Source of the DNA: Paraburkholderia sp. IMGN_8
GTDB taxonomy: Bacteria > Pseudomonadota > Gammaproteobacteria > Burkholderiales > Burkholderiaceae
DNA: 64,000 nucleotides
Direction of reading: 5' to 3'
Assembly (NCBI RefSeq): GCF_038050405.1
Contig: NZ_CP150900.1
Coordinates: forward strand, 2,604,001 to 2,668,000
The notes under the pieces are model-generated. The model was not told where the DNA came from. It saw only the letters and a list, made by a program, of their open reading frames with translations, and did not search any database. Numbering within the stretch: the first letter of the stretch is position 1; each line of letters starts with the position of its first letter. The translations under genes and the position numbers were made by a program. Below are positions 8,697 through 29,813 of this stretch, in pieces.

Positions 8697-8933
8697 GTTG
8701 TTCCCTTCGTGGCGCGGCAACCGGCTACCTCAAATGCGTATACAAACCCCGGTAACGAGCCGGGTACGAGAGTTTTGTCGAGTGAAGTATCCACCGAACA
8801 GCCGCATTCAGTAAAGCAGTCTACCTGTGCATGCTTTACGTCGTGCCACAGTGCGGGTAAATTTTGTAACTGACTGTAACCCGATAAATGGTGCAACCGC
8901 GCACCCCTTTCTAATCGCGCTAAGATGCCGACC

Positions 8934-11864: not shown

Positions 11865-12389
11865 ATGGAATTCTTGTCTTCGATTAAGGCGCTCGTGCCT
11901 GATTATGCCAAGGACATTCGGCTTAATCTGGATGGGACGATTGCGCGGTCGTCGCTCGAGGGGAATGACGCGGTTGGGGTCGCGCTGGCGGCTGCGTTTG
12001 CCGCGAAAAGTACGGTTATTGCCGATGCGATTCGTAACGCGGGAGTTTTGTCTCCTGAGGAGACGAATGGCGCGTTGACTGCCGCTGCGCTGATGGGGAT
12101 GAATAATGTCTGGTATCCCTATGTCGAGATGACGGATAGCGCTGATTTGAAATCTCAGCCGGCGCAGTTGAGGATGAATGCTTATGCTTCGCATGGCGGG
12201 GTTGATAAGCGGCGGTTTGAGATGTATGCGCTGGCAGCTTCTATTATTGGTAAATGCCATTTTTGTGTGAAATCACACTTTGATACGCTGGTCGCTGAGG
12301 GGATGAGTTCTACTCAATTGCGGGATGTGGGCCGCATCGCGGCGGTGGTTAACGCTGCTGCGCAGGTTATTGCTGCTGAAGGTAAATAG
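11865..12389 (+). CDS. ahpD: Alkylhydroperoxidase AhpD
   Basis: 174 residues, all-helical carboxymuconolactone-decarboxylase fold. The catalytic motif is Cys131-H-F-Cys134 followed by His138 in IIGKCHFCVKSH, which reduces AhpC disulfides or peroxides directly. The start has TAGGAGAT six bases upstream. It follows ahpC after an intervening terminator. Codon use is odd: over the last 82 codons about 35 end in T and only 8 in C, the reverse of ahpC. Protein motifs are intact, so the gene looks functional. The anomaly increases towards repeat element A, which begins within 5 bp of the stop codon. Confidence 0.92.
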   Translation: MEFLSSIKALVPDYAKDIRLNLDGTIARSSLEGNDAVGVALAAAFAAKSTVIADAIRNAGVLSPEETNGALTAAALMGMNNVWYPYVEMTDSADLKSQPAQLRMNAYASHGGVDKRRFEMYALAASIIGKCHFCVKSHFDTLVAEGMSSTQLRDVGRIAAVVNAAAQVIAAEGK

Positions 12390-12393
12390 TTGG

Positions 12394-13200
12394 CTTTTTT
12401 TGCCTTTGGCGGCGGCATTTGGTTGTACGCCTGCGGCGTTGGCATTTTCTTTTCTTATTGGTTTATTAGCGTCGCCCCTGTGCGGGGCGGCACCTACTTT
12501 TCTTTGCCGGCCGCAAAGAAAAGTAGGCAAAAGAAAGCGGCTCAAACCGCTAATGCTAAGCGGGTTCCTCGCGCAGTCACGGTAGTGGAACATCTGGAAT
12601 CCGTGCCCTCGCACACTCCGCGCTGGTGACAAGGCAGTCATTCTTCCGGCGGCGCTACGCGCGCCGTAGCGGTACTTCTTGAAACCGATGGGACGTACGC
12701 GCTTCCCGCGTCATTCGCCCCGCCTCGCACTGCGCGCTCGCCGGAACGGTCTGCCAGGGAAACTAGGGGCTTCGTTTGTGCGTCGTTGGGGCCATCGGCT
12801 TTGCCTCGGCGAGGCGCTGAATAGTGGAAGTGCGAGCCATTTCGCCGAACAAAACGCAGCCAAGAGTTGCGCTTGAACGACCGCTGGCGCCGGAAGCGCC
12901 CGAGACGGTTTGGTGAAGTACCGCTACGGCGCGCGTAGCGCCGCCGGAAGTATGACTGCCTTGTCACCAGCGCGGAGTGCGCGAGGGCACAGATTCCAGA
13001 TGCACCACCACCCCTCCAAGCCAGGGGACCCGCTTAAGAATTAGCGGTTTGAGCCGCTTTCTTTTGCCTACTTTTCTTTGCGGCCGGCAAAGAAAAGTAG
13101 GTGCCGCCCCGCACAGGGGCAACGCTAATAAACCAATAAGAAAAGAAAATGCCAACGCCGCAGACGTACAACCAAATGCCGCCGCCAAAGGCAAAAAAAC
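12394..13200. repeat. Palindromic intergenic repeat element, copy A
   Basis: The left arm (12394-12687) and the right arm (12906-13200) are nearly identical inverted repeats of about 294 bp. Both begin outside with TTTTTTTGCCTTTGGCGGCG and contain, in order, a 33 bp hairpin, an AGCGG/CCGCT mini-hairpin, and GGTGACAAGGCAGTCAT. Between them lies a ~218 bp core that includes CTCGCCGGAACGGTCTGCCA on the plus strand. The element fills the whole gap between the convergent genes ahpD and ispF. Short open frames in it follow the repeat and have no ribosome sites. No transposase is seen. The same element recurs at 26383-27166. Confidence 0.88.
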
Positions 13201-13204
13201 AAAT

Positions 13205-13684
13205 TCAATTCTTGATTAACAAAACAACAGCTTGGGCTTCAATGCCCTCCCCCCGCCCGAGGTAACCCAGCTTCTCATTAGTCTTGGCCTTAACATTAAC
13301 CCGCTCAACCGGCAGGTTAAGATCCGCAGCAATATTAGCCCGCATCCCTTCAATATGAGGAGCAAGCTTAGGCGCCTGAGCCACAACACTGCTATCAACA
13401 TTGGCAATAGAAAACCCAGCCGCCGCCACGCGAGCAAAGCACTCCCGAAGCAAAACCCGACTATCCGCGCCAGCGAACTTAGCATCAGTATCGGAGAAAT
13501 GCCGCCCGATATCCCCCATCGCAGCAGCGCCAAAAATAGCATCAGTAATAGCATGCAACAGCACATCCGCATCCGAATGCCCGAGCAGCCCGCGCTCATA
13601 AGGAATCGTCACGCCGCCGATAATCAACGGACGCCCCGGCACCAGCGCATGCACGTCATACCCCTGCCCAATCCTGAAATCCAT
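13205..13684 (-). CDS. ispF: 2-C-methyl-D-erythritol 2,4-cyclodiphosphate synthase
   Basis: 159 residues. MEP pathway enzyme that cyclises CDP-ME-2-phosphate to ME-cPP, acting as a trimer in the cytoplasm. The divalent-metal Asp and His are in GYDVHAL, and the family signature [14 protein letters not shown] follows; the C-terminal [17 protein letters not shown] is also conserved. ATG 13684 matches the usual [10 protein letters not shown] start; a TTG three codons upstream is possible. It follows ispD with a 37 bp gap. The 3' half is unusual: over the last 57 codons about 25 end in T and 7 in C. The gene faces repeat element A, which starts 5 bp past its stop. Confidence 0.93.
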
Positions 13685-13721
13685 ATGCGTCAAGTCCGCT
13701 AATAAAAATTGAAACCGTCAA

Positions 13722-14435
13722 TCAGGAAGCCGGCGGCCGGCAAAGAATCGCCTCGGCCAGATCAAAGTCTTCCGGATAAGTGACCTTGAAGTTGCGCAAG
13801 CTACCCTGCACCAGCTTCGGTGCGTACCCAAGCCACTCGATCGCGCTCGCCTCATCGGTCAAATCGTGACCGTCCGCCTGCGCCCGCAGAATTGCTTCAC
13901 GCAACATGCCGATACGGAACATCTGCGGCGTCTGCGCTTGCCATAAACCATCGCGTGCCTCGGTCCGGGCAATCCGTCCATCGGAAGACCCCGCATCGAT
14001 ACGCTTCAACGTATCCGCCACCGGCAGCGCCATGATGCCGCCCACTGCATCGTCCTTCAGCGCGCCAATCAGCGTGCGAATCAGGGAAGGCGTAATGCCC
14101 GGCCGTGCCGCATCGTGCACCAGCACCCAATCGTCGTCGTGGGCGCCGAATTCGGCCAGCGCATGCAATCCGTTCAGCACCGACGCCTGGCGCGAAGCCC
14201 CGCCGGAACGGCGCACGGCGAAACGCAAGCCGCTGAAACGGCGAGCGTCGAAGTGCTGGTCGTCAGGTGCAATCACGACCAGCGTCTGCGCAAACTCACT
14301 GCACGCGTCGAACGCGGCCAGCGAGTAATGCAACATGTCGCGGCCGGCAACGGTGCGATACTGTTTGGGCATCGCGGCGCCGGAACGGCTGCCGGTGCCT
14401 GCGCACGGAATCAGGGCAAATAGGCGGGAAGTCAC
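13722..14435 (-). CDS. ispD: 2-C-methyl-D-erythritol 4-phosphate cytidylyltransferase
   Basis: 237 residues from the GTG at 14435. It transfers CMP to MEP in the MEP isoprenoid pathway. Nucleotide-binding [10 protein letters not shown] and [10 protein letters not shown] are near the N-terminus, [12 protein letters not shown] in the middle, and a conserved [10 protein letters not shown] and AQTPQMFR follow. An upstream in-frame ATG would add 24 residues that do not resemble the family, so I prefer GTG although its ribosome site is weak. It is transcribed with ispF. The promoter probably lies in the 121 bp divergent region shared with mfd. Confidence 0.92.
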
Positions 14436-14474
14436 GAGTGCGGATGCCGCGAAGTCAAAGTAAAGGACGGATTT

Positions 14475-14480
14475 TATAAT
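14475..14480 (+). promoter_or_regulatory. Candidate -10 box for mfd
   Basis: TATAAT in GATTTTATAATAGG lies 77 bp upstream of the mfd start in the ispD/mfd divergent region. The minus strand at the same place reads TTATAAAAT and could serve ispD, although this would fall inside the optional longer ispD frame. No -35 element is clear for either. Confidence 0.4.
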
Positions 14481-14556
14481 AGGTCCTTCGCATCCACGCC
14501 CCGACACGCGTAAACTTGCCGATCACGTGTGAGCCTGAGGCCGCCTTTTCTCTTCT

Positions 14557-17500
14557 ATGCCAGACATCGCCGCATCATCGCAGTACTCTCCGCCCGTCGC
14601 GCCCGTCAAGGCCGGCCAGCGTTTCGCCTTCGACGGCACGCACGGCTCGTCCGATGCGCTGCTGATCGCCCGCTACCATCTCGCCTACCGCGAGAAGATG
14701 CCGCTATTGGCGGTCGTCTGCGAAAGCGCCGTCGATGCGCAGCGTCTGTCGCAGGAAATCGGCTTTTTTGCGCCCGAGGCACGCGTGCGTTTGCTGCCCG
14801 ACTGGGAAACGCTGCCTTACGACACCTTCTCGCCTCACCAGGACCTGGTGTCCGAGCGCCTCGCCACGCTGCACGATCTCGGCGAGAGCCGCTGCGACAT
14901 CCTGCTGGTACCCGCCACCACCGCGCTGTACCGGATGCCGCCCGCGTCGTTCATGGCCGGCTACACGTTCTCGTTCTCGCAAGGCGAGCGCCTCGACGAA
15001 GCCAAACTCAAAGCGCAATTGACGCTCGCGGGCTACGAACACGTAAGCCAGGTGGTGCGTCCCGGCGAATACTGCGTGCGCGGCTCGCTGCTCGATCTCT
15101 ATCCGATGGGCTCGCCGCTGCCGTACCGGATCGACCTGTTCGACGACCAGGTCGACTCGATTCGCGCGTTCGACCCTGACACGCAGCGCAGCCTCTATCC
15201 GGTGAAAGACGTGCGTCTGCTGCCGGGCCGCGAATTCCCGTTCGACGAAGCCGCCCGCACCGCCTTCCGCAGCCGCTGGCGCGAAACCTTCGAAGGCGAC
15301 CCGAGCCGCGCGTCGATCTATAAGGACATCGGCAACGGCGTGCCGTCGGCCGGCATCGAATATTATCTGCCGCTCTTCTTCGACGACACCGCCACGCTGT
15401 TCCATTACCTGCCCGAGGGCGCGCAACTGGCGTTCGTCGGCGATCTGGACGCGGCAATCAAGCGCTTCACCAACGACACGAAGCAGCGCTACAACTTCCT
15501 GTCGCACGATCGCGACCGGCCGATTCTGGAGCCACAGCGCCTGTTTCTGTCGGACGAAGATTTCTTCACGTTCGCCAAGCCGTTCGCGCGGCTCGTGCTG
15601 CCCACCAACGCGGGCGGCGGCTGGTCCTTGCCGTTACCGAACCTCGCGATCGATCGTCACGCCGACGATCCGGTGTCGGCATTGCGCGCCTATCTCGACA
15701 CCACGCCGAACCGCGTGCTGTTCGCGGCCGAATCCGCAGGCCGTCGCGAAACGCTGCTGCAACTGCTCGCCGACAATCATCTGAAGCCCGCATCGAGCGA
15801 CAGCTTCCAGGACTGGCTCATCAGCGACGCGCGTTTTTCGCTAGGCGTCGCGCCGCTCGCCAACGGTTTTGCCGTGCCGCTCGACGGCATCGCGATCATC
15901 ACCGAAACCGAGCTATACGGACCGCTCGCGCGCCGCGCGGGACGCCGTCGCCAGGAACAGGCGAGCAACGTCGATTCGATGGTGCGCGACCTGTCCGAGC
16001 TGAAGGTCGGCGATCCGGTCGTGCATGCGCAGCACGGCATCGGCCGCTATATGGGCCTCGTCACCATGGATCTCGGCGAAGGCGAAACCGAGTTCCTGCA
16101 CCTCGAATATTCCGGGGAAAGCAAACTGTACGTGCCGGTCGCGCAACTGCACGTAATCTCGCGCTATAGCGGCGCCGATCCGGAAAGCGCGCCCTTGCAC
16201 TCGCTCGGCTCCGGGCAGTGGGAAAAGGCCAAACGCAAAGCCGCGCAGCAGATTCGCGACACCGCAGCCGAACTGCTGAACCTGTACGCCCGTCGCGCCG
16301 CACGCGAAGGCCACGCGTTCGCGCTCGAACCGAAAGATTACGTGAAGTTCGCCGAGAGCTTCGGCTTCGAGGAAACACCGGACCAGGCCGCGGCCATCGC
16401 CGCCGTGATCGGCGACATGACGAGCGGCAAGCCGATGGATCGCCTCGTTTGCGGTGACGTCGGCTTCGGCAAGACCGAAGTGGCGTTGCGAGCGGCATTC
16501 ATCGCGGTGATGGGCGGCAAGCAGGTCGCGCTGCTCTCGCCGACCACGCTGCTCGCCGAACAGCACACGCAAACCTTCAGCGATCGCTTCTCCGATTGGC
16601 CGGTGCGTATCGCCGAACTGTCGCGCTTCAAGTCGACCAAGGAAGTCAACGCGGCGATCCAGCAGATCAACGAAGGCAGTGTCGATATCGTGATCGGCAC
16701 GCACAAGCTGCTGTCGTCGGATGTGCAGTTCAAGCGCCTCGGGCTCGTGATCATCGACGAGGAACACCGCTTCGGCGTGCGTCAGAAAGAGGCGTTGAAG
16801 GCACTCAGAGCCGAAGTGGACGTGCTGACGCTCACCGCCACGCCGATTCCGCGTACCCTCGGCATGGCGCTCGAAGGCTTGCGCGATTTCTCAGTGATCG
16901 CTACCGCGCCGCAAAAGCGCCTCGCGATCAAGACCTTCGTGCGTCGCGAGGAAGAGAGCGTGATCCGCGAAGCGATGCTGCGCGAACTGAAGCGCGGCGG
17001 CCAGGTGTACTTCCTGCATAACGAAGTCGAGACGATCGAGAATCGCCGGCAGATGCTCGAAGCGCTGGTGCCCGAAGCACGTATCGCGGTCGCGCATGGA
17101 CAGATGCATGAGCGCGAACTCGAACGCGTGATGCGCGACTTCGTCGCGCAACGCGCCAACGTGCTCTTGTGCACGACGATTATCGAAACCGGTATCGACG
17201 TGCCGAGCGCCAACACGATTCTGATTCATCGCTCCGACAAATTCGGTCTTGCGCAGCTGCATCAGCTGCGTGGCCGCGTGGGCCGCTCGCATCACCAGGC
17301 GTATTCGTATCTGCTGGTGCACGATCCGCAAGGTTTGACGAAGCAGGCGCAGCGCCGGCTCGAAGCGATCCAGCAAATGGAGGAACTCGGTTCGGGTTTC
17401 TATCTGGCGATGCACGACCTCGAAATTCGCGGCACGGGCGAAGTGCTCGGCGACAAGCAATCGGGCGAGATTCACGAAATCGGTTTCCAGCTCTATACCG

Positions 17501-18039
17501 ACATGCTGAACGACGCCGTGAAGGCGCTCAAGGAAGGCAAGGAGCCCGACCTCACCGCGCCGCTTGCCGCGACCACCGAGATCAACTTGCACGCACCGGC
17601 GATTCTGCCCGCGGACTATTGCGGCGACGTGCAAGAACGTCTGTCGCTCTACAAGCGCCTCGCGAACTGCGAACACAACGATTCGATCGACGGCATTCAC
17701 GAAGAGTTGATCGACCGCTTCGGCAAGTTGCCGCCGCAAGCGCATGCGCTGGTGGAAACGCATCGTCTGCGGCTGGCGGCGAAGCCGCTGGGGATTTCGA
17801 AGATCGATGCGGGCGAAGCCGTGATCGGTTTGCAATTCATCCCCAATCCGCCGATCGACGCGATGCGGATCATCGAGATGGTCCAGAAGCATAAGCACAT
17901 CAAGCTCGCCGGCCAGGACAAGTTGCGTATCGAAACGCGCAGCCCGGATCTGGCCGTTCGGGTCGCGACGGTGAAAGAAACCTTGCGCGCGCTCGGAGCG
18001 CCCAGCCGCGGCACGGCCGCCGCTGCTGCCGCGCGATAG
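14557..18039 (+). CDS. mfd: Transcription-repair coupling factor
   Basis: 1160 residues, the usual Mfd length. It removes RNA polymerase stalled at lesions and recruits UvrA. The UvrB-like N-terminal module (~1-350) includes LLPDWETLPYDTFSPHQD. The RNAP-interacting domain begins near KVGDPVVHAQHGIGRYMGL. The helicase core has Walker A CGDVGFGKTEVALRA, Walker B VIIDEEHRFGVRQKE, motif III LTATPIPRTL, and lobe-2 motifs TTIIETGIDVPSAN and QLRGRVGRSHHQAYSYLL. A TRCF C-terminal domain follows. ATG 14557 is the first reasonable start. It is divergent from ispD and is followed 151 bp later by the argE-like gene. Confidence 0.96.
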   Translation: MPDIAASSQYSPPVAPVKAGQRFAFDGTHGSSDALLIARYHLAYREKMPLLAVVCESAVDAQRLSQEIGFFAPEARVRLLPDWETLPYDTFSPHQDLVSERLATLHDLGESRCDILLVPATTALYRMPPASFMAGYTFSFSQGERLDEAKLKAQLTLAGYEHVSQVVRPGEYCVRGSLLDLYPMGSPLPYRIDLFDDQVDSIRAFDPDTQRSLYPVKDVRLLPGREFPFDEAARTAFRSRWRETFEGDPSRASIYKDIGNGVPSAGIEYYLPLFFDDTATLFHYLPEGAQLAFVGDLDAAIKRFTNDTKQRYNFLSHDRDRPILEPQRLFLSDEDFFTFAKPFARLVLPTNAGGGWSLPLPNLAIDRHADDPVSALRAYLDTTPNRVLFAAESAGRRETLLQLLADNHLKPASSDSFQDWLISDARFSLGVAPLANGFAVPLDGIAIITETELYGPLARRAGRRRQEQASNVDSMVRDLSELKVGDPVVHAQHGIGRYMGLVTMDLGEGETEFLHLEYSGESKLYVPVAQLHVISRYSGADPESAPLHSLGSGQWEKAKRKAAQQIRDTAAELLNLYARRAAREGHAFALEPKDYVKFAESFGFEETPDQAAAIAAVIGDMTSGKPMDRLVCGDVGFGKTEVALRAAFIAVMGGKQVALLSPTTLLAEQHTQTFSDRFSDWPVRIAELSRFKSTKEVNAAIQQINEGSVDIVIGTHKLLSSDVQFKRLGLVIIDEEHRFGVRQKEALKALRAEVDVLTLTATPIPRTLGMALEGLRDFSVIATAPQKRLAIKTFVRREEESVIREAMLRELKRGGQVYFLHNEVETIENRRQMLEALVPEARIAVAHGQMHERELERVMRDFVAQRANVLLCTTIIETGIDVPSANTILIHRSDKFGLAQLHQLRGRVGRSHHQAYSYLLVHDPQGLTKQAQRRLEAIQQMEELGSGFYLAMHDLEIRGTGEVLGDKQSGEIHEIGFQLYTDMLNDAVKALKEGKEPDLTAPLAATTEINLHAPAILPADYCGDVQERLSLYKRLANCEHNDSIDGIHEELIDRFGKLPPQAHALVETHRLRLAAKPLGISKIDAGEAVIGLQFIPNPPIDAMRIIEMVQKHKHIKLAGQDKLRIETRSPDLAVRVATVKETLRALGAPSRGTAAAAAAR

Positions 18040-18190
18040 GGTGCCATAGCGTTCGATAGCGCGCGATTAAAAAAAACGCGCCACGTCTAGCCGTTTTACG
18101 TTCATGCTGCGGTGCGCAAAACGCGCGCCGCAGCATACGGCCGTGTTTTTTTTGGGTATGATCGAAAGACTCAAATGCTGGAGTCTCGCC

Positions 18191-19468
18191 ATGTCTCACG
18201 TCGCTGAATCAGCGCAGTCCTCGCAAACGCCCGCCTCCGCATCAAACTCCTCCTCGCCTGCTTCGGTCCCTGCCTCGCTTCCCTGGGTCACCCGCCTCGT
18301 GTCAATGGACACGGTGAGCCGCAATCCGAATCTCGGCCTGATCGAAACCGTGCGCGACGAACTGCGCGCCGTCGGTATCGAAGCGACGCTCACCCACGAC
18401 GACAGCGGCAAATGGGCCAACCTTTTCGCGACGATTCCCGCGCACGATGGCGAGACCAACGGCGGCGTGGTGCTATCGGGTCACACGGATGTCGTGCCGG
18501 TCGACGGCCAGCAATGGGACAGCGATCCATTCAAGCCGGAAATTCGCGGCGACAAACTATACGGGCGCGGCACCTGCGACATGAAAGGCTTCATCGGCGC
18601 GGCGCTTGCGCTAGTACCCGAGATGCAGCGCGCGAGGCTCGCGAAGCCGATTCACTTCGCGCTTTCGTTCGATGAAGAAGTGGGTTGCGCGGGCGCCCCG
18701 CTGCTGATTGCAGACCTGATGAAGCGCGGCGTGAAGCCGGACGGCTGCATCGTCGGCGAGCCGACCAGCATGCGCCCGATCGTCGCGCACAAGGGCATCA
18801 ACGCGTATCAATGCTGCGTGCGCGGCCAGGCCGCCCATTCGTCGCTGACGCCAAAGGGCTTGAACGCAATCGAATACGCCGCGCGCCTGATCTGCTACAT
18901 CCGCGATATGGCCGACCAGTTCCGCGAGCAAGGTCCGTTCGACGAGCTGTACGACGTGCCCTTCACCACCGCGCAAACCAGCACCATCACCGGCGGCAAT
19001 GCGATCAACACGGTGCCGGCCGAATGCCGCTTCCAGTTCGAATTCCGCAATCTGCCCACGCTCGATCCCGAACCGATCTTCGCGCGCATCGAACAATACG
19101 CGCGCGAAACGCTGCTGCCGAAAATGTTGCGCGAGCATCCGTTGGCGGCCATCGAGATCACTAAAATCGCCGCGGCGCCCGGGCTCGATTCGTCGGAACA
19201 GGCGGCCATCACGCAACTCGTGCGGGCGTTGACCGCCGACCAGGACAAACGCAAGGTGGCATACGGCACGGAGGCGGGGCTGTTCTCGCTGGCGGGAATT
19301 CCCAGTATCGTGTGCGGGCCTGGCGACATCCAGCAGGCGCACAAAGCGAACGAATTCGTCGCGCTCGATCAGCTTGTCGCTTGCGAGCGCTTCCTGCAAA
19401 AATTCATTCACAGCATGTCGGTCGACGCCTCGAAGGAAGTCCTCTTGGGGGACGCACACGCGCACTGA
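18191..19468 (+). CDS. argE: Acetylornithine deacetylase-type M20 peptidase
   Basis: 425 residues, cytoplasmic dinuclear-zinc amidohydrolase. Metal and catalytic motifs are LSGHTDVVPVDG, GRGTCDMKGF and DEEVGCAG; the dimerisation lid follows, and GTEAGLF with a late His completes the active site. This pattern is typical of ArgE, which converts N-acetylornithine to ornithine; a related acyl-amino-acid deacylase cannot be excluded. I start at MSHVAESAQ; the longer upstream frame is low-complexity. A Ser/Ala-rich leader of ~30 residues precedes the conserved domain. The last dozen residues (SKEVLLGDAHAH) come from copy 2 of the dispersed repeat. The next gene starts 56 bp downstream in the same direction. 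Confidence 0.85.
   Translation: MSHVAESAQSSQTPASASNSSSPASVPASLPWVTRLVSMDTVSRNPNLGLIETVRDELRAVGIEATLTHDDSGKWANLFATIPAHDGETNGGVVLSGHTDVVPVDGQQWDSDPFKPEIRGDKLYGRGTCDMKGFIGAALALVPEMQRARLAKPIHFALSFDEEVGCAGAPLLIADLMKRGVKPDGCIVGEPTSMRPIVAHKGINAYQCCVRGQAAHSSLTPKGLNAIEYAARLICYIRDMADQFREQGPFDELYDVPFTTAQTSTITGGNAINTVPAECRFQFEFRNLPTLDPEPIFARIEQYARETLLPKMLREHPLAAIEITKIAAAPGLDSSEQAAITQLVRALTADQDKRKVAYGTEAGLFSLAGIPSIVCGPGDIQQAHKANEFVALDQLVACERFLQKFIHSMSVDASKEVLLGDAHAH
19427..19454 (+). repeat. Dispersed ~30 bp repeat, copy 2, at the 3' end of argE
   Basis: The copy runs from GCCTCGAAGGAAGTCC into TCTTGGGGGAC. It has the same polarity and reading frame (KEV-LGD) as copy 1 and supplies most of the final residues of the ArgE-like protein. 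Confidence 0.7.
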
Positions 19469-19523
19469 AACTGAGCGGCTCGACAAGAGTCCTACGCATA
19501 TCGACAAAAACTACGCCCACGCC

Positions 19524-20558
19524 ATGTCAACCGCCACGCCGCAGCACACCGACCATACGATCGACGGCGAGCCGATCCCTACGCTCGACGACATCGCCAC
19601 GCAGCATTTTGCGTTGGCGCCGTGGGTCACGCGAACGCCGGTGTTCGACCGGCTCGACTTTCCGTCGCTGGAAGGCACGGTGGTGAACTTCAAGTTCGAA
19701 CTGCTGCAAGCGGGCGGCAGCTTCAAGGCCCGTGGCGCGTTCACCAACCTGCTGGCGCTCGACGAAGCGCAACGCAGCGCGGGCGTCACCTGCGTATCGG
19801 GCGGCAATCATGCAGTGGCGATCGCCTATGCGGCGATGCGTCTTGGCATCAGCGCGAAGGTGGTGTTGTTCCGCGCGGCCAATCCGGCGCGTGTCGCGTT
19901 GTGCCGGCAGTACCGTGCCGAGATCGTGTTCGCGGAAAACCTCGCCGAAGCGTTCGAACTGGTGCGCCGTATCGAGGCGGAGGAAGGCCGCTACTTCGTG
20001 CATCCGTTCAACGGCTATCGCACGGTGCTGGGCTCGGCCACACTCGGCTACGAATGGACCACGCAAACGCCCGACCTCGAAGCGGTGATCGTGCCGATCG
20101 GCGGCGGCGGCCTCGCCGCCGGCGTCGCCACGGCAATGAGGCTCGCGAATCCACGTGTGCATGTGTACGGCGTCGAACCCGAAGGATCGGATGCGATGGG
20201 CAAGAGCTTCGCCGCCAATCACACGGTCAAGATGGGCCCCATGCACAGCATCGCCGATTCGCTGATGGCGCCGCACACCGAGGAATACAGCTACGAACTA
20301 TGCCGCCGGCACATCGACCAGCTCGTCACCGTATCGGACGATCAACTGCGCTCGGCCATGCTGATCTTGTTCGGACAACTTAAGCTAGCGGTCGAACCGG
20401 CCTGCGCCGCCGCAACGGCGGCGCTGCTCGGACCGTTGCGCGAAAAGCTGCAAGGCAAGCGTGTCGGCGTTCTGCTATGCGGCACCAACACTGACCCGGT
20501 CAGTTTTGCCGCACACATCGAACGGGCTCGCTCGCTGACGCCGGAGTCTCCGGTTTAA
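19524..20558 (+). CDS. Threonine/serine dehydratase-like PLP enzyme
   Basis: 344 residues, fold-type II PLP enzyme. The Schiff-base Lys is in GGSFKARGAF, the phosphate-binding Gly loop in IGGGGLAAGV, and SGGNHAVAIAYAA and LLCGTNTD fit the threonine ammonia-lyase/serine racemase branch. There is no C-terminal ACT domain, so it resembles catabolic (TdcB-like) rather than feedback-regulated biosynthetic enzymes. The exact substrate is not decided by the sequence; hydroxyectoine-type lyases share this architecture. The start is the ATG at 19524, 56 bp after the argE-like gene, so the two may be co-transcribed. The longer upstream frame runs through argE and the dispersed repeat and is not credible. 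Confidence 0.82.
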   Translation: MSTATPQHTDHTIDGEPIPTLDDIATQHFALAPWVTRTPVFDRLDFPSLEGTVVNFKFELLQAGGSFKARGAFTNLLALDEAQRSAGVTCVSGGNHAVAIAYAAMRLGISAKVVLFRAANPARVALCRQYRAEIVFAENLAEAFELVRRIEAEEGRYFVHPFNGYRTVLGSATLGYEWTTQTPDLEAVIVPIGGGGLAAGVATAMRLANPRVHVYGVEPEGSDAMGKSFAANHTVKMGPMHSIADSLMAPHTEEYSYELCRRHIDQLVTVSDDQLRSAMLILFGQLKLAVEPACAAATAALLGPLREKLQGKRVGVLLCGTNTDPVSFAAHIERARSLTPESPV

Positions 20559-20656
20559 TCCCATTTAACAATCCATAACGCCTTTCCCGGCTAAGGGACT
20601 AGTCTATCCTTCTGAGCTTGGTATCATTCGGGTATCAATTTTCAGGGGGAACCTCT

Positions 20657-21094
20657 ATGAGCATGATCAAGGAATTCAAGGAATTTGCCCTCAAGGGCAA
20701 CGTGATGGATCTCGCCGTCGGTGTGATTATCGGCGGTGCTTTTTCCACCATCGTCAATTCGATTGTTAAAGACCTGATCATGCCCGTTGTCGGACTTGCT
20801 ACCGGCGGCCTCGATTTCTCCAATAAATTCGTCCGTCTGGGCGATATTCCGGCCAGCTTCAAAGGTAGCCCAGAGTCGTATAAAGACTTGCAGACGGCAG
20901 GCGTTGCCGTATTCGGTTATGGCTCGTTTATCACCGTCCTGATCAACTTCATCATCCTCGCGTTCATCATCTTCCTGATGGTCAAGTTCATCAACAATCT
21001 GCGCAAGCCGGCTGAGGCCGCGCCGGCCGAGCCGCCGGAAGATGTGCTGCTGCTGCGCGAAATCCGCGATTCCCTGAAGAACCCGGCGCATTAA
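20657..21094 (+). CDS. mscL: Large-conductance mechanosensitive channel
   Basis: 145 residues, homopentameric inner-membrane channel that opens under hypo-osmotic shock. GGGGGA lies 7 bases before the ATG at 20657. The N-terminal amphipathic helix is [22 protein letters not shown]1 is [20 protein letters not shown], and a periplasmic loop with FGYGSF follows. TM2 is [20 protein letters not shown], and the cytoplasmic helix ends in [13 protein letters not shown]. All family elements are present and length is normal. It converges on the hybrid-kinase operon, separated by strong hairpins. Confidence 0.96.
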
Positions 21095-21097
21095 GCA

Positions 21098-21125
21098 TTG
21101 GACCCGGCACATCAGCCGGGTCCAA
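21098..21125 (+). other. Perfect hairpin just after mscL
   Basis: TTGGACCCGGC (21098-21108) and GCCGGGTCCAA (21115-21125) form a perfect 11 bp stem with a 6-nt loop. It has no T-tract of its own and lies directly before the true terminator, so it could act as a 3' stability structure. Confidence 0.6.
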
Positions 21126-21128
21126 TAA

Positions 21129-21168
21129 AAAGGCCTGCTGCGATTGACTCGCAGCAGGCCTTTTTTAT
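21129..21168. terminator. Bidirectional terminator between mscL and the hybrid kinase gene
   Basis: AAGGCCTGCTGCGA pairs with TCGCAGCAGGCCTT around TTGAC and is flanked by A5 on the left and T6 on the right. It can therefore serve both convergent transcripts. Confidence 0.85.
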
Positions 21169-21217
21169 CGTGCGCTCAACATACCCGCACGCAGCGCGAA
21201 AATGTCCATCCGGTGCA

Positions 21218-23191
21218 CTATTCGTCCTGCTGCGCCTTCCGATTCGCCACGCTTTCGATCATCGTTTCAAGCTGGCCGAAATTGACCGGTTTGGTCAAAT
21301 GCGAAGTGAAACCGGCGCTCAGACAACGGCGCACGTCTTCGTCGGTGCCGAAGCCTGTCAACGCAACCGCGGGCACGTCCGAATGCTCGCGGAACGCCCT
21401 GATGAAATCGAGGCCTGTGCCGTCGGGCAAACCCACGTCGCTGATCACCAGCTCAAAGGTGCGCGCCTGAGTAGCGGCCAGCGCATCGTCCACGCGCCCG
21501 ACCACCGTCACGTCATGTCCGAGGCCGCGAATCAGCTGCGCCATCACCTCCGCGGTATCGAGGTGGTCCTCAATTAACAGAATGGTCAGGAGACCTGCCG
21601 CATGCACTTCGGCCGGTGCGCTCACGAGGGGCGCTTCGGCAGGTTTCGCGGCGGTCGGCAGCGTGATCGTGAAAGTCGCGCCGCAATGCGCGCCCGGGCT
21701 TTGCGCGATCACCGTGCCGCCATGCACGTCGGTCAGCGCCTTGGTGATCGCAAGGCCGAGGCCGAGCCCGCCGAACTGCCGCGTCATGTTCTGGTTGCCC
21801 TGCTCGAACGCGTTGAACAGCTTGCCGATCTGCTCCGGTTCGATGCCGATACCCGTGTCTTCAACCGAGATCTGCACGTGCATGCGTTCGTCGCGCGTGC
21901 GCACGTAGATATGGCCGCCGTCCGGCGTGAACTTGGCGGCGTTGCGAATCAGGTTCCACAACATCTGTTGCAGCCGTGCACGGTCGGCCAGCACGTAATG
22001 GTGCTGCGCGTTCTTGTGCACGTGCACGTCCTGCTGCTTGACCTGGATCTCGCTGCGAAACAGTTCGAGCACGCTGTCGAGCACGTCGTGCACGTCGACG
22101 GTTTCCAGCGATAGGCGCAGCTTGCCGTTCGCCACCCGCGTGAGGTCGAGCAAGTCGTCGATCAGCCGCGCTTCGAGTTCGACGTTGCGACGGATCATGC
22201 GCACACTCGCGCGCGCCTGCTCGGGCAGATCCGCAATCATCTCCAGCACGCTGGCGCCGGCCAGTACCGGCGTAAGCGGCGTGCGCAATTCATGCGACAG
22301 CATCGCCAGAAAGCGGTCTTTCGCGCGGTTGGCCTCTTCGGCGGTCTGGCGGGCGGCCTGCTCCGACGCGAGCAGGCGTTCGCGCTCCTCGATCGCTTCA
22401 CGCTGCGGATGAATGTCCGTGCAACTGCCGAACCATTTGCTGACGTTGCCGTCGGCGTCGCGCATGGCGACCACGCGGGCGTCGAACCAGCGATATTCGC
22501 CGTCGTGGCGGCGAATCCGCAGTTCGTGCCGATAGTCGCCGGCACCGCTCTTCACCGCCCTGAGCCAGGTGCTGCGGATTTCCTCGCGGTCGTCTGCATG
22601 CACGGCGTCGAGCCATGCGAGGCCGTATGAACTGCTTTCGGCCAGCCCCGTGTAGTCGAACCACTGCTTCGACAGAAAATCGCAATCGCCCTCGGCGTTG
22701 CAGGTCAGCACAAGGTGCGGCAACGCTTCCGACAAGGTCCGGTAATGCTGTTCGCGATCGCGCAGCAGCAAGGCTTCGTCCGAGGCTTTCTGCAAGCGCA
22801 CTTGCGACAGCACCCGCTCGACGGCTTCGGGCAGGTAATCGAGGTAATCGCCGGATTTCGGCACCACGTCGGACACGCCCGCGCGCAACGCTTCGATCAC
22901 GCGGGATTCGTCAGTGAAACCAGTCACGAGAATGGCGGGAATCCGCACGCCCTCAGCGCGCAAGCGGCGAAAGAAGTCGAGGCCGGTCTCCGGCCCGCTG
23001 AGCTGGTAATCGAGCACCAGCAGGTCGGGAGAGCTCGCGGCGAGCCGCTCGCGGGCCGCCTCGACACCGGCGCAGATCGCCACCCGGCAGCCGGCGCGCT
23101 CGAGCGACTTGCGCGCGAGCCGCAGAATACCTTCGTCGTCGTCGACGACCAGCACATACGCGGCGGGCAGCGTGGATACTTCTGGGGTCAT
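21218..23191 (-). CDS. Hybrid sensor histidine kinase with receivers at both ends
   Basis: 657 residues, no transmembrane segment, so cytoplasmic. Domain order is receiver (~10-125, Asp in LLVLDYQLSGPETG), PAS/PAC (~150-275, LVLTCNAEGDCDFLSKQWFD), HisKA (His in FLAMLSHELRTPLTPVL), HATPase (NLIRNAAKFT, VEDTGIGIEPEQIG, GLGLGLAITKAL) and a second receiver (~535-650, LVISDVGLPDGTGLDFI). The ATG at 23191 has GAAGA upstream; a TTG two codons earlier is less likely. It is the last gene of a three-gene minus-strand operon, 78 bp after a stand-alone receiver. The likely relay is the membrane kinase to the small receiver to this hybrid kinase. No DNA-binding output is encoded locally. Confidence 0.88.
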   Translation of the reverse strand: MTPEVSTLPAAYVLVVDDDEGILRLARKSLERAGCRVAICAGVEAARERLAASSPDLLVLDYQLSGPETGLDFFRRLRAEGVRIPAILVTGFTDESRVIEALRAGVSDVVPKSGDYLDYLPEAVERVLSQVRLQKASDEALLLRDREQHYRTLSEALPHLVLTCNAEGDCDFLSKQWFDYTGLAESSSYGLAWLDAVHADDREEIRSTWLRAVKSGAGDYRHELRIRRHDGEYRWFDARVVAMRDADGNVSKWFGSCTDIHPQREAIEERERLLASEQAARQTAEEANRAKDRFLAMLSHELRTPLTPVLAGASVLEMIADLPEQARASVRMIRRNVELEARLIDDLLDLTRVANGKLRLSLETVDVHDVLDSVLELFRSEIQVKQQDVHVHKNAQHHYVLADRARLQQMLWNLIRNAAKFTPDGGHIYVRTRDERMHVQISVEDTGIGIEPEQIGKLFNAFEQGNQNMTRQFGGLGLGLAITKALTDVHGGTVIAQSPGAHCGATFTITLPTAAKPAEAPLVSAPAEVHAAGLLTILLIEDHLDTAEVMAQLIRGLGHDVTVVGRVDDALAATQARTFELVISDVGLPDGTGLDFIRAFREHSDVPAVALTGFGTDEDVRRCLSAGFTSHLTKPVNFGQLETMIESVANRKAQQDE

Positions 23192-23269
23192 GCGCAATCT
23201 TCTTTGGCTAGGTCTGGTGTAGCTATGTTTGTAACGGGCGGCTTTCGGGCGTCTGCCAAGAGGCGCCCG

Positions 23270-23749
23270 TCATGGCGCCGCCAGCCGATGACCGGGCGGC
23301 AGCTTGACCACCTGCAGAAAAAAGCCGAGACGCCGCACCGCTTCGATGAACGCATCGTACTCGACCGGCTTGGTGATGTAGACGTTGCAGCCGAGTTCAT
23401 AGCAGCGCGCGATTTCGCGCGGATCGTCGGTCGTGGTCAGGACGATAACCGGCACCGCGGCGGTCTGCGGCGAATCCTTCAAACGCCGCAACACTTCGAA
23501 ACCATCGACGCGCGGCATCTTCAGATCCAGCAGCACGACGAAATTCGTCAGATCTTCGCGTGGCGGATAGGGACTCGCGGCGGCGTCGGCCGGCGCGGGG
23601 CCGAAAAAATAATCGAGTGCTTGCTGACCGTCGCGAAAACGCACGAAACCGTTCGAAATACCGGCGCGGCGCAAATTGCGCTCGACGAGCGTTGCGTGGC
23701 CGTCGTCGTCTTCGATCAGCACGATGCTGACCGTCTCCCCGTGACTCAT
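23270..23749 (-). CDS. Single-domain response regulator, Rcp1-like
   Basis: 159 residues consisting only of a receiver: IVLIEDDDGHATLVERNLRR at the start, phosphoacceptor Asp in FVVLLDLKMPRVDGFEVLRR, Thr in VIVLTTTDDPRE and Lys in VYITKPVEYDAF. The long insert between the acidic pocket and the phospho-Asp (FGPAPADAAASPYPPREDL) is typical of the Rcp1 group that partners phytochrome and CHASE-type kinases. It has no output domain, so it probably shuttles phosphate between kinases. It lies 89 bp downstream of a CHASE3-type kinase gene and 78 bp upstream of the hybrid kinase gene, all in the same direction. Confidence 0.88.
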   Translation of the reverse strand: MSHGETVSIVLIEDDDGHATLVERNLRRAGISNGFVRFRDGQQALDYFFGPAPADAAASPYPPREDLTNFVVLLDLKMPRVDGFEVLRRLKDSPQTAAVPVIVLTTTDDPREIARCYELGCNVYITKPVEYDAFIEAVRRLGFFLQVVKLPPGHRLAAP

Positions 23750-23838
23750 ATGCCCTCCGTACCGGCGATTCGTTTACGCATATTGTTTCTAAGTATCCCC
23801 ACTATTGCCCCGGCTGCCGATCTCAATTCGATAGCACT

Positions 23839-25449
23839 TCAATGGCGCGCCGGTTGCTCCGGCAGCACGACGAAAAAGGTCGACCCCGCGCCTTCCGCCG
23901 ACTCCACCCAAACCCGGCCGCCGTGCCGCTCCACCATGCGCCGCACCACCGCAAGCCCGATGCCCTCGCCGCTCGCGACGTCGCCGTGCAGACGCTGAAA
24001 CGCGCGGAACACCTTCGACATATACGCGGCCGGAATCCCGAGTCCATTGTCGCGCACGTAATAGGTGCGGGTGCGCAGCACGCCCGGCTCCTTTTCGTCC
24101 ACCGGTTCCGGCTCCAGCGCGCCGATCTCGATGCGCCCGTGACGCACCGGGTCGAGATAGTTGAGCGCGTTGCCGATCAGGTTACTGAAAATCTGTTCGA
24201 TCGCGCCCGGGTCGCCCCACGCGGGCGGCAACTCGCGCACGGTGACCACCGCCGCGCGCTGCTTGATCGCGCCCTGCAGCGCATCGACCACCCGGCCCAC
24301 CACTCGCCCGACGCTCACGCGCTGCCACTGATATTCGAGCCGGCCGGCACGCGAAATGCGCAGCAGCGCGTCGATGATCGCCGCGGCCCGCGTCACCGCG
24401 GTACGCAGATATTGCAATGACTCCCGCACGTCGCCGTCGAGGATATGCACCATGCGTCGATGCTCGGCTTGCGGCAAGTTGGCCGCCTCGACGGTCCTGT
24501 GCAGTTCGTCGCACGACACCTGTAACTCTTTCGAAAAACCTTGCAGATTCACCAGCGGCGAGCGTAGATCGTGCGACACGCTATAGATGAACATTTCGTT
24601 GTCTTGCGTTTCCTGGCGCAACTCCTCGTTGACGCCCGCGAGCTCCTGTGCACGCGCCTGGAGCCGCGCTTTCAGCATGGCCTGCTTGCCTTCCGCCTCG
24701 CGCAAACGGGCGCCAGTCTGATGAAGCACCGCGTCGAGTGCGGCGATTTCGTCGTTGCCGGAAAGCGGCGCCGCGAGCGGCCGCCCGTTGCCCAGACGTT
24801 CAGCGTTATCGGTCAACACTTCCAGCCGCCGGCCGATGCTGCGCGCAAACACCACGGCGGTGGCTGCCCAGATCAGCATCGAGCCGATCACCGCGGCGAT
24901 CAGCGCATATTGCTGGCGCTCGCGCCGCCGCGCGAGAGACGCGTCGCGCTCGGCGTCGAGCCGCGACGCCTCTTTGTCGAACGCAGCGAGTTCGTCGCGG
25001 AACAGCGCGATCTGCTGAGGCAGCGCACCGCCTTCCAGCGCGGCGAACGAATTCAGACTGCGCCGCGCATGTAGCGCCTGCGAGATCGCGGCGGTCTGCG
25101 CGCGATACGCTTCGATCGCCTGTTGCATCTTGCGCACGCGCCGGACTTGCTGCGGCGTATCGGCGACTAGCGCCTCGAGGTGCGCAAGCCGGTCGCCGAG
25201 CTCAACCCACACTGTATGACGGTCAATAAACAATGGATCGCCGACGACCATACCCGTGCGCACCCGCGCGGCCTGACGCAGCAGCGGATCGACAATGGCC
25301 GACGACTGATAGAGGATCTGCTTGCTGTTGGCGACCCACTGCGCGGCCTGCGCCGTTTGCTCCTGGGTATCGAAGACGACGCCCAGGAGCGCCAGCTCGA
25401 CCACGCTCGGCACTGCAATCAGCAGCAGACCCTTGGTGAAAAGTTTCAT
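23839..25449 (-). CDS. Membrane sensor histidine kinase with a CHASE3-type sensor
   Basis: 536 residues. TM1 is at ~7-28, and a helical periplasmic domain of ~150 residues (NSKQILYQSSAIVDPLLRQA onward) resembles CHASE3. TM2 is at ~183-203, followed by HAMP, a coiled coil, HisKA (His in FIYSVSHDLRSPLVNLQGF) and HATPase (NLIGNALNYL, VRDNGLGIPAAY, GIGLAVVRRMV). Such kinases are usually cognate to Rcp1-like receivers, and one is encoded next. I start at ATG 25449 (MKLFTKGLLL); a GTG at 25467 would add six residues. It is the first gene of the signalling operon. The stimulus is unknown. Confidence 0.87.
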   Translation of the reverse strand: MKLFTKGLLLIAVPSVVELALLGVVFDTQEQTAQAAQWVANSKQILYQSSAIVDPLLRQAARVRTGMVVGDPLFIDRHTVWVELGDRLAHLEALVADTPQQVRRVRKMQQAIEAYRAQTAAISQALHARRSLNSFAALEGGALPQQIALFRDELAAFDKEASRLDAERDASLARRRERQQYALIAAVIGSMLIWAATAVVFARSIGRRLEVLTDNAERLGNGRPLAAPLSGNDEIAALDAVLHQTGARLREAEGKQAMLKARLQARAQELAGVNEELRQETQDNEMFIYSVSHDLRSPLVNLQGFSKELQVSCDELHRTVEAANLPQAEHRRMVHILDGDVRESLQYLRTAVTRAAAIIDALLRISRAGRLEYQWQRVSVGRVVGRVVDALQGAIKQRAAVVTVRELPPAWGDPGAIEQIFSNLIGNALNYLDPVRHGRIEIGALEPEPVDEKEPGVLRTRTYYVRDNGLGIPAAYMSKVFRAFQRLHGDVASGEGIGLAVVRRMVERHGGRVWVESAEGAGSTFFVVLPEQPARH

Positions 25450-25884
25450 GTTCGCCCAATGGGTCACTCAGGCCCCGGCGGCACGCGAGGACAGCTTGCC
25501 GCCTGACCATGCTGCCGGGCCGCGGTGCCGGACGGCGAGCACGGCGCGGCGCAGCCGGACGGGCCATTATCGACGCGAATGTGAGATATTTCAACGTAGA
25601 GGCAAGATGGGCTCGCCCACATAAAAATGACTTTTTTATTGATCACATGTGTTTTTTCGGCGGCGCGTGCGTCTATGATGGAAACAGATGTGTTGGGAAG
25701 CGAAAGCGCGCGGCGAGGCGATTCGGCATGATTCGTGCGGGAGGCGGTGTGACGGCGCAGTCGTCGAATCACCGTGAATCCGGCCTTGTCGTATGCTATA
25801 AAAGATCGACGTGCGGCGCGCGAAGCCGGGAGTGGTCGCATGAGGACGCTGCGTTTCTTGCAATTCTTTTTCAGGCGAATTTTT
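25450..25884. other. Divergent intergenic region with promoter-like sequence
   Basis: This 435 bp gap lies between the kinase operon (minus) and a plus-strand unknown gene. Its middle is A+T-rich (about 25620-25660) and includes TTGATCACATGTG, which resembles half of a CRP/FNR-type site. Nothing in it looks translated except a possible N-terminal extension of the following gene. Confidence 0.4.
25797..25802 (+). promoter_or_regulatory. Candidate -10 box for the following unknown gene
   Basis: TATAAA in TATGCTATAAAAGATC lies 83 bp upstream of the start at 25885. The -35 region is weak. Confidence 0.35.
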
Positions 25885-26334
25885 ATGTCCTTCCCGAAAA
25901 AGCGTAGACGCGCGAAGGTGGACGGCGATGAGTCGTTCCTCGCGGTGCTGCGGCATTTCAAACCATTCGGTCAGCTCGACACCAAGATTGCGCGCGCTCG
26001 CGCGCAGGATGAACCGGTGCTCTATGCGCATGTGCTGCCAGGGCTCGATGTCCTTTTGTGCAGCGTGCGAGGGGCGCAGCCGCCTTATCCGGCGCCGGCT
26101 GAGTTGCGGCGGCGTTGTATTGAGTCCATTACCAATGCGTTGGAACAGCCGCTCGATGGGCTGGAGAACGGCGGGTATTGGTATGAGGCCGATGGGTTTG
26201 GGTTTTTGGTCTTTGCCAGCCGGGCCAGGGGGAAGATCCTGACGGAGTTTGGAGCCACCCGGGTTGGTGGCGCCCGTAGGGGGGTTCGGCGGCAGGATGC
26301 CGCTGGGGATGCCGCTCCGCGGTCTTTGAGGTAA
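25885..26334 (+). CDS. Unknown basic protein facing repeat element B
   Basis: 149 residues from MSFPKKRRRAKVDGDE; an ATG at 25840 with GGGAG upstream would add 15 residues and is a fair alternative. The N-terminus is strongly basic. The middle (FLAVLRHFKPFGQLDTKIAR, then YAHVLPGLDVLLCSVRG) and GGYWYEADGFGFLVFAS look like a folded domain, which I do not recognise. The tail is Arg/Gly-rich. Third positions shift from C towards T near the 3' end (about 25 T to 17 C over the last ~85 codons). The stop codon is ~50 bp from repeat element B. Some C-terminal residues may be a product of sequence decay. Confidence 0.55.
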   Translation: MSFPKKRRRAKVDGDESFLAVLRHFKPFGQLDTKIARARAQDEPVLYAHVLPGLDVLLCSVRGAQPPYPAPAELRRRCIESITNALEQPLDGLENGGYWYEADGFGFLVFASRARGKILTEFGATRVGGARRGVRRQDAAGDAAPRSLR

Positions 26335-26382
26335 GGTTTTTTGCCTTTCAGGCGGATTTTGTTCTGTCTGCCTGGGGTGGTG

Positions 26383-27166
26383 ACTTTTTTTTCTTTGCCT
26401 TTGGCGGCGGCATTCTTCTGTGTGCCTGCGGCGTTGGCCTTTTCTTGATTTGATATTGGTTTATTAGCGTTCCCCCTGTGCGGGGGGCACCTACTTTTCT
26501 TTGCCGGCCGCAAAGAAAAGTAGGCAAAAGAAAGCGGCTTCACACCGCTAACTCTTAAGCGGGTCCCCTGGCTTGGAGGAGGCAGTGGAGCATCTGGAAT
26601 CTGTGTTCTCGCGCATTCGGCGTGAGTGACAAGGCCGTCATACTTCCGGCGGCGCTACGCGCGCCGCAGCGGTACTTCATCAAACCGCCTGCCATTTTTG
26701 GCACGCTACGCTACTTCATCAAACCGCCCGCCACGTCTGACGCCCTGCGGTACTTCATAAAACCGCGAGTCTTCTCTAGCGTACTAGCGGCACTTCCAAA
26801 CCGTAAGTCATTCGGCGGCTCGCCGAGGCGAAGCCGATGGCACCCACCGCGCGCAAACGAAGCCCCTGGTTTGCCTGGCAGACCGTTCCGGCGAGCACGC
26901 AGTGCGAGGCGGGAAGAATGACTGCCTTGTCACCAGGGCGGAGTGTGCGAGGGCACCGATTCCAGATGCTCCACTGCCTCCTCCAAGCCAGGGGACCCGC
27001 TTAAGAATTGGCGGTGTGAAGCCGCTTTCTTTGCTTACTTTCTTTGCGGCGCAAAGAAAGTAAGTGCCTGCCCCGCACAGGGGCGACGCTAATAGACCAC
27101 TAAGAAATCAAGGAAAGGCCAACACCGCAGGCGCACAGACAATGCCGCCGCCAAAGGCAAAAAAAC
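26383..27166. repeat. Palindromic intergenic repeat element, copy B
   Basis: The left arm (~26383-26688) and right arm (~26914-27166) are inverted repeats of each other and of the arms of copy A. They share the TTTGCCTTTGGCGGCGGCAT end, the CAAAGAAAAGTAG-type hairpin, GCTTAAG..GGGTCCCC and GTGACAAGGC. The core contains the copy A core as its reverse complement (26819-26913, TGGCAGACCGTTCCGGCGAG) plus a 39 bp tandem repeat. The right arm is shorter and more diverged. It fills the gap between two convergent genes, as copy A does. No transposase is present. Confidence 0.85.
26671..26802 (+). repeat. 39 bp tandem repeat inside element B
   Basis: TACTTCAT-containing units begin at 26673, 26712 and 26751, and a diverged fourth (CACTTCCA) at 26791, giving a period of 39-40 bp. 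Each unit carries TACTTCATCAAACCGCC or a close variant. Copy A has a single equivalent (GGTACTTCTTGAAACCG) per arm. Confidence 0.75.
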
Positions 27167-29669: not shown

Positions 29670-29813
29670 TGAAGGCTCCGCGGTTTCTTCTTGGTTATGC
29701 AACTGACAGCACGTATCGTGCCTGATAGTTGCCGTTTTATCATGCCGCACAGCTCAAGTGCACGTCGCGTGTGATGGGAATGTCACAGCGACGTCACGGC
29801 CACGCCCGAGAAA

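Follow-up and report, generated by a model that had tools for sequence, protein, structure and literature searches.

A family of composite palindromes in Paraburkholderia with cores in both orientations, probably through exchange between copies

Introduction

How does one core sequence come to lie in opposite directions inside two palindromes of the same chromosome? The question is raised by a 64,000-nucleotide stretch of Paraburkholderia sp. IMGN_8 (contig NZ_CP150900.1, positions 2,604,001 to 2,668,000; hereafter the window, with positions counted from its first letter), which carries two large intergenic elements, A (12395-13199) and B (26390-27165). Both are spaced palindromes with long inverted arms; the core of A is asymmetric, and that of B is reversed relative to it. 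A preliminary description of the window held that the two elements have long homologous inverted arms, that they carry the same core in opposite orientation, and that both lie between convergent genes. It offered two explanations, inversion by recombination between the arms and independent insertion in either direction.

Repeats that are dispersed yet homogenised are well known. Here we report that A and B are members of a large family of intergenic repeats, apparently undescribed so far, in Paraburkholderia and relatives, together with the copy number and gene context of the family, changes of core orientation and replacement of interiors at orthologous loci, tracts common to different loci and one crossover inversion. 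We consider it probable, albeit with reservations, that A and B are non-coding dispersed composite palindromes whose cores are swapped between copies by way of the inverted arms, with no dedicated switch. The presence of one core in both directions is probably a result of core exchange between repeats.

Results

The description of homologous arms and a reversed core was borne out by alignment, with arm identities of 85-95%. In A, the inverted pairs 12395-12568/13026-13199 (174 nt, 95%) and 12581-12687/12906-13012 (107 nt, 92%) build up a left arm (12395..12687, + strand) and a right arm (12906..13199, - strand) on either side of an asymmetric core of 218 nt (12688..12905, +). B has one such pair, 26527-26664/26895-27032 (138 nt, 85%), plus outer pieces of 69 nt and 25 nt, within a left arm at 26390..26687 (+) and a right arm at 26909..27165 (-). 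The arms of both elements match the family arm. The family-conserved part of the A core (core positions 23-135, 12710-12822, +) corresponds to 26810-26922 (-) in B with 88% identity on opposite strands; the asymmetric core adjoins the left arm in A, and is reversed and adjoins the right arm in B.

The unit is thus a composite palindrome, two inverted copies of a hairpin-rich arm of about 290 nt with an asymmetric core, mostly placed against gene 3' ends. The genome (9.1 Mb, two contigs) contains 194 copies of the internal hairpin as against none for a reversed control pattern, and the RNA fold of the whole of A has a z score of -34.5 (versus 20 shuffles), so that the palindromes of A and B are not due to chance. 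By script, 75 paired elements were analysed (74 fetched stretches plus the window), while the 194 hairpins indicate that the genome holds further copies; single-arm copies are also present, and ten were inspected. The core is in + orientation in 41 of the paired elements, in - orientation in 30 and undetermined in four, which is near random (binomial p 0.24). Within the genus the internal hairpin occurs in 125 of 144 genomes, with 0 to 496 copies each. Among 299 genomes of the family Burkholderiaceae, 132 have a hairpin match, and double-digit counts recur only in the own genus and two other genera (g10, g24), with 11 copies in one g3 genome. A plasmid collection yielded 21 records with a match, and a phage collection none. 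Searches of the open-access PMC literature turned up no paper with a description of the family in its title or in the opening lines of its abstract.

Whether a locus keeps its core orientation was assessed with 126 elements from six chromid records, three from strains of the P. largidicola clade (W01-W03) and three from P. caribensis (W04-W06, for which most but not all copies were fetched). Both flanks had to match consistently, and elements failing this or with rearranged flanks (7 pairs) were dropped. The outcome that the preliminary description named as speaking against it, one fixed orientation at every locus, is not what is seen, and orientation varies between strains: it differs in 3 of 58 comparisons (two loci) at a mean flank identity of 99.3%, in 6 of 24 at 96.1%, and in 27 of 82, with one more ambiguous, at 91.3%. 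By strain pair, flips number 1 of 12 for W01-W02, 1 of 17 for W04-W05, 4 of 14 for W04-W06 and 4 of 11 for W01-W04, and range from 2 of 9 to 4 of 9 in nine distant pairs.

At the same loci the interior drops in identity much faster than the flanks, to 0.943, 0.828 and 0.767 at flank identities of 99.3, 96.1 and 91.3%, respectively. From 96% flank identity downward, the interiors of orthologs are only as alike as those of unrelated copies (paralog means 0.82 and 0.766). Module-wise identities were obtained for 57 of the 58 close comparisons (flank cut-off 98.5%); in 16 of these the interior falls below 0.92, and the hairpin module averages 0.969. At locus L226 the flanks and arms are nearly identical between orthologs and the interior is wholly different.

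Seven candidate donor pairs were chosen from the longest shared tracts within replicons. In three of them donor and recipient could be told apart, with both copies on the same replicon and flanks about 99% identical: L231 passed an exact tract of 139 bp to L230, L315 one of 155 bp to L316, and the copy at 2280 of L317 one of 154 bp to that at 8832. Over the donor tract, identity to the own orthologs is 0.85-0.88 for the recipients and 0.97-0.99 for the donors. Two further pairs (146 and 175 bp) show no clear polarity, and two have no donor ortholog for comparison. In the L317 pair the cores lie opposite ways round (0.665 identity direct, 0.925 flipped) with the tract in core register, and the same arrangement, partner cores opposite on the replicon and the tract in core register, is found in one of the pairs lacking a donor ortholog. 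Copies therefore exchange sequence whatever their direction. The genome of strain IMGN_8 likewise has exact tracts of 108-148 bp common to different loci, in direct and inverted sense; since the slices compared include the inner arm halves, an inverted match here may join a left arm to a right arm.

Exchange with crossover was seen once. Relative to W03, W01 carries an inversion of about 11 kb between two copies, and the breakpoint between one left flank and its inverted neighbour lies inside the arm of L236; the far right side of the inversion is unmatched. Separately, in L331 of P. caribensis MWAP64 the left flank and the left part of the element match strain 852011, and synteny breaks inside the element.

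The best-surviving alternative is that recombination between the two arms of a single element flips its core in place, with fast divergence or partial exchange afterwards. The arms are long inverted repeats and orientation does differ at orthologous loci, just as such inversion would have it. However, none of the 58 close comparisons shows a flip with a near-identical interior: once re-oriented, the three flipped pairs are 0.817, 0.817 and 0.892 identical, versus a mean of 0.948 for the 55 unflipped ones. When all divergence classes are taken together, a flipped ortholog ranks first in only 3 of 36 comparisons (two of them at L226), and an unflipped ortholog does so in 49 of 127. A simple flip in place, the first of the two early proposals, is accordingly rejected as the general cause, and we regard this alternative as rather unlikely overall. 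L226 fits either reading. Of 60 elements the one closest to it is its own flipped ortholog (0.817, the next 0.771), and an in-place inversion may have occurred there.

Several observations weigh against exchange between copies as the source of the flips. The longest exact tract that L226 shares with any of 126 elements, 58 bp, is again with its own flipped ortholog (40 bp with the next locus), which makes inversion in place a real alternative at that locus. No donor was found for the three flipped alleles checked (L226, L309 and L332), and no near-identical L226 interior was found in 144 genomes of the genus, in each of which four candidates were scored. As no donor has been identified for any flipped locus, the link from exchange to flipping is one that we infer. 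The recipient at 8832 of L317 kept its own orientation despite a donor of opposite orientation. Divergence of the outer tips (identity 0.935 in the 57 close comparisons) keeps pace with that of the interiors, and for 8 of 20 elements listed pairwise no copy on the replicon has more than 50 bp in common with them. The 58, 24 and 82 orientation comparisons share loci and hence are not independent, and they take core orientation in public assemblies at face value, with assembly error possible. Exchange has been seen directly in relatives only, from which we infer it for A and B themselves. Finally, the arms of one element are slightly more alike than expected: the agreement between left and right arm described in the next paragraph is reached in none of 1000 shuffles, with the excess strongest at the tips, and some arm-to-arm exchange or joint arrival must therefore exist. 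For the flipped alleles L309 and L332 the longest shared tracts are 96 and 88 bp, compared with a typical 44-45 bp on their replicons.

Left and right arms of the same element agree at 0.9015, versus 0.888 (sd 0.004) for shuffled partners, in the 66 of 75 elements with full arms on both sides. When 64 elements were searched for best partners, the own partner came first for 5 of 128 arms. A first impression from L216 and L217, namely that the palindrome is kept by arm-to-arm conversion within one element, thus failed for the family, since the two arms of an element resemble each other hardly more than they resemble the arms of other elements.

Copies also come and go at a given locus, as the presence and absence of the element at the A and B loci among relatives indicates. 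Of 77 genomes, 39 contain the gene left of A, and the analysis covered 30 loci, one of them that of strain IMGN_8 itself. Both genes flanking A could be placed in 28 of the 29 others: long arms lie between them in four and a small version in two, the spacer measures only 25-299 bp in 21, and L058 has 1436 bp without an arm match. For B, 80 named loci were retrieved through the AsmA-type gene, mostly from Paraburkholderia and Caballeronia with a few named Burkholderia; arm matches stand beside that gene in one (L172), with no partner gene detected there.

These distributions bear on the second early proposal, that a mobile element resembling a miniature inverted-repeat transposable element (MITE) or a repetitive extragenic palindromic (REP) sequence inserted independently, either way round, with orientation set at arrival. 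It would account for hairpin numbers that vary from 0 to 496 among congeners, for the absence of the element between the same gene pairs in most relatives examined, and for near-random orientation across loci, and independent insertion in either direction may apply to the first arrival of a copy. As an explanation of the opposed cores it is unlikely, because core orientation and content change at loci already occupied. No target-site duplication was seen by eye at 44 tip pairs; a close empty site defining the junctions was not found, nor, among the loci of relatives, a clean pair of empty and filled sites with a usable junction. An autonomous mobiliser was likewise not found in a genome-wide search that covered Y1_Tnp only. 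The sole Y1_Tnp match of the genome (C1:365736-366026, L135) is free of elements in its 3.3 kb locus and lies upstream of a frame that we take to be gltB-like. All 29 genomes checked contain such matches, 12 of these genomes having at least 115 hairpins and 17 none, and the match is single in 23. A REP-associated tyrosine transposase (RAYT), acting on paired REP sequences (REPINs), was therefore rejected as the mobiliser: the gene is not flanked by the element and its presence does not track copy number.

The arms themselves receive insertions. Three 1309-bp inserts (L081, L098 and L121, on C1 and C2) break arms at the same hairpin point, one of them reversed; according to Pfam those in L081 and L121 encode an IS110-family transposase, and the translated sequence of L098 is the same. 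Together these inserts point to an IS110-type element with the repeat as its target. At the hairpin apex of L131 and L069 there are 1273-bp inserts in opposite orientations with an rve-type transposase (Pfam was run on L131 only). More transposase-bearing inserts lie in arms of L076, presumably IS30-like, L113 (rve and HTH_21 by Pfam) and L079 (Tn5-type, also by Pfam). In AP028202 an IS256 or IS5 transposase is annotated as the next gene on one side of 3 of 20 elements (L362, L364 and L365).

The siting between convergent genes holds for A and B, and as a rule for the family it does not. A leaves 5 bp to the stop codon on either side, between a gene of the carboxymuconolactone decarboxylase family (11865..12389, +; PF02627) and ispF of the YgbB family (13205..13693, -; PF02542). 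B lies 55 bp and 26 bp from the stops of a gene without Pfam family (25774..26334, +), homologs of which stand beside an AsmA-type gene in many of the 80 loci, and of an AsmA-family gene (27192..29750, -; PF05170). In the whole genome 28 of 74 elements occupy convergent spacers, compared with 61 of 383 other gene pairs (Fisher p 4.5e-5), as judged by a rough gene caller that overlooked the two neighbours of A and, at B, the one on the + strand, and that mislabelled B. In the annotated AP028202 (W02), 20 elements were classed by hand as 12 convergent, 5 co-directional and 3 divergent, with 29 of 40 sides facing a gene end. Convergent spacers are thus enriched, and the family is not confined to them.

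Short hairpins follow one another along each arm: a T-run tip, GCCCCTGTGCGGGGC, a hairpin of 31-35 bp built on ACTTT(T)CTTTG, AGCGG..CCGCT and an inner hairpin that is GC-rich. The left arm of A comprises the tip, a GCCCC hairpin, the 35-bp hairpin (12493..12527, two perfect 15-nt arms and a 5-nt loop) and the inner part, and its right arm has the 35-bp hairpin at 13067..13101. B has a 35-bp hairpin in the left arm (26490..26524) and a 31-bp hairpin of the other stem type in the right arm (27034..27064). In A, a terminator-like hairpin at 12471..12491 (+) faces transcripts from the left gene, and its mirror image at 13103..13123 (-) those from the right gene. Terminator-like sites, GC-rich hairpins with a T run behind them, number 7 at A (1.8 expected, sd 1.4) and 8 at B (1.5 expected, sd 1.3; six inside the element and two left of it), on both strands in either case, and their tails are mostly interrupted T runs. 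As judged from these predicted hairpins it is plausible, at lesser strength than the points above, that the arms would serve the abutting genes as terminators of transcription in both directions.

The Rfam family RF02421 (Bp1_684), a candidate small RNA (sRNA) of Burkholderia, matches all four outer arms, at 12407-12503 (- strand), 13091-13187, 26402-26500 and 27054-27160. The first of these scores 46.2 bits and is the only one above the gathering threshold of 44, the others reaching 37.9, 36.6 and 33.5. It may be that RF02421 represents a piece of this repeat. Neither '684' nor 'repeat' occurs in the PMC3521395 main text. Local hairpin halves agree, in two stem versions, in 116 of 117 parsed arms (15 of 132 did not parse), which could also be explained by linkage within an exchanged tract. 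That the elements encode a large structured RNA or sRNA, the palindrome being a selected RNA structure, would fit the RF02421 match, the hairpin halves that change together and the fold of A (z -3.1 for one arm by itself), yet it is very unlikely, as arm-arm mismatches have no G-U excess on the core strand (319 G-U versus 372 A-C of 16827 cells), arm-arm agreement is close to that of random arms, no promoter-like site was found in A or B, and core orientation is independent of co-directional neighbours (18 same, 14 opposite). A strand-specific RNA was rejected.

Discussion

The exchange of interiors between copies is probably brought about by ordinary homologous recombination of the RecA type that sets in within the near-identical arms. 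As each arm is an inverted repeat of the other, the whole interior could be exchanged in either direction, and core orientation would then drift towards random.

A few known systems invite comparison. In the arm, a short hairpin preceded by GTAG or GTAA resembles, we presume, a REP sequence, here as part of about 290 nt. REP sequences, bacterial interspersed mosaic elements (BIMEs) and REPINs with their RAYTs have in common with the present family that they are intergenic, palindromic, of high copy number and near gene 3' ends, but their unit is 20-40 bp or a pair of these, as opposed to 0.7-0.9 kb, and a RAYT gene is flanked by the repeat, unlike the one Y1_Tnp gene here. A survey of GTAG/CGTC REP sequences (PMC3733652) does not contain 'Burkholderia' in its main text. 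MITEs, too, are non-coding and dispersed with terminal inverted repeats, which A and B possess. Here, however, the arms make up most of the element, target-site duplications were not seen, and no parent transposase was found where Y1_Tnp alone was searched for. Invertible DNA switches share a segment between inverted repeats that is found in both orientations, whereas the flipped cores are so far not near-identical inverted copies, and no promoter-like site was found inside A or B; among the four genes abutting A and B, Pfam gave no recombinase family. Bp1_684 shares the outer 100 nt or so of the arms, and in the present family this is one end of a repeat, found twice per element and in dozens of copies. 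The palindromes of the human Y chromosome have inverted arms and gene conversion as well, but there the arms of one palindrome homogenise each other, while here arms mix across the whole family.

What sets the family apart is that bacterial palindromes of about 0.8 kb have their interiors swapped between loci either way round, visibly so between strains with 99% identical flanks. Events of interior exchange can be counted and thereby offer a natural assay of how bacterial palindromes recombine. Two cautions follow for users of such genomes: a family listed in Rfam as an sRNA overlaps a repeat, and strain comparisons at spacers bearing the element track recombination rather than descent.

The synteny breaks at copies suggest that the copies shape chromosome structure. 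More speculatively, and with considerable doubt on our part, the family might constitute a genome-wide pool of exchangeable, orientation-free cassettes, whose hairpin-rich arms would recruit recombination and insertion sequences so often that core content and orientation are reshuffled while the flanks diverge by 1-4%. The spacers that harbour them would then be systematic rearrangement sites in Paraburkholderia chromosomes, possibly selected for two-way termination.

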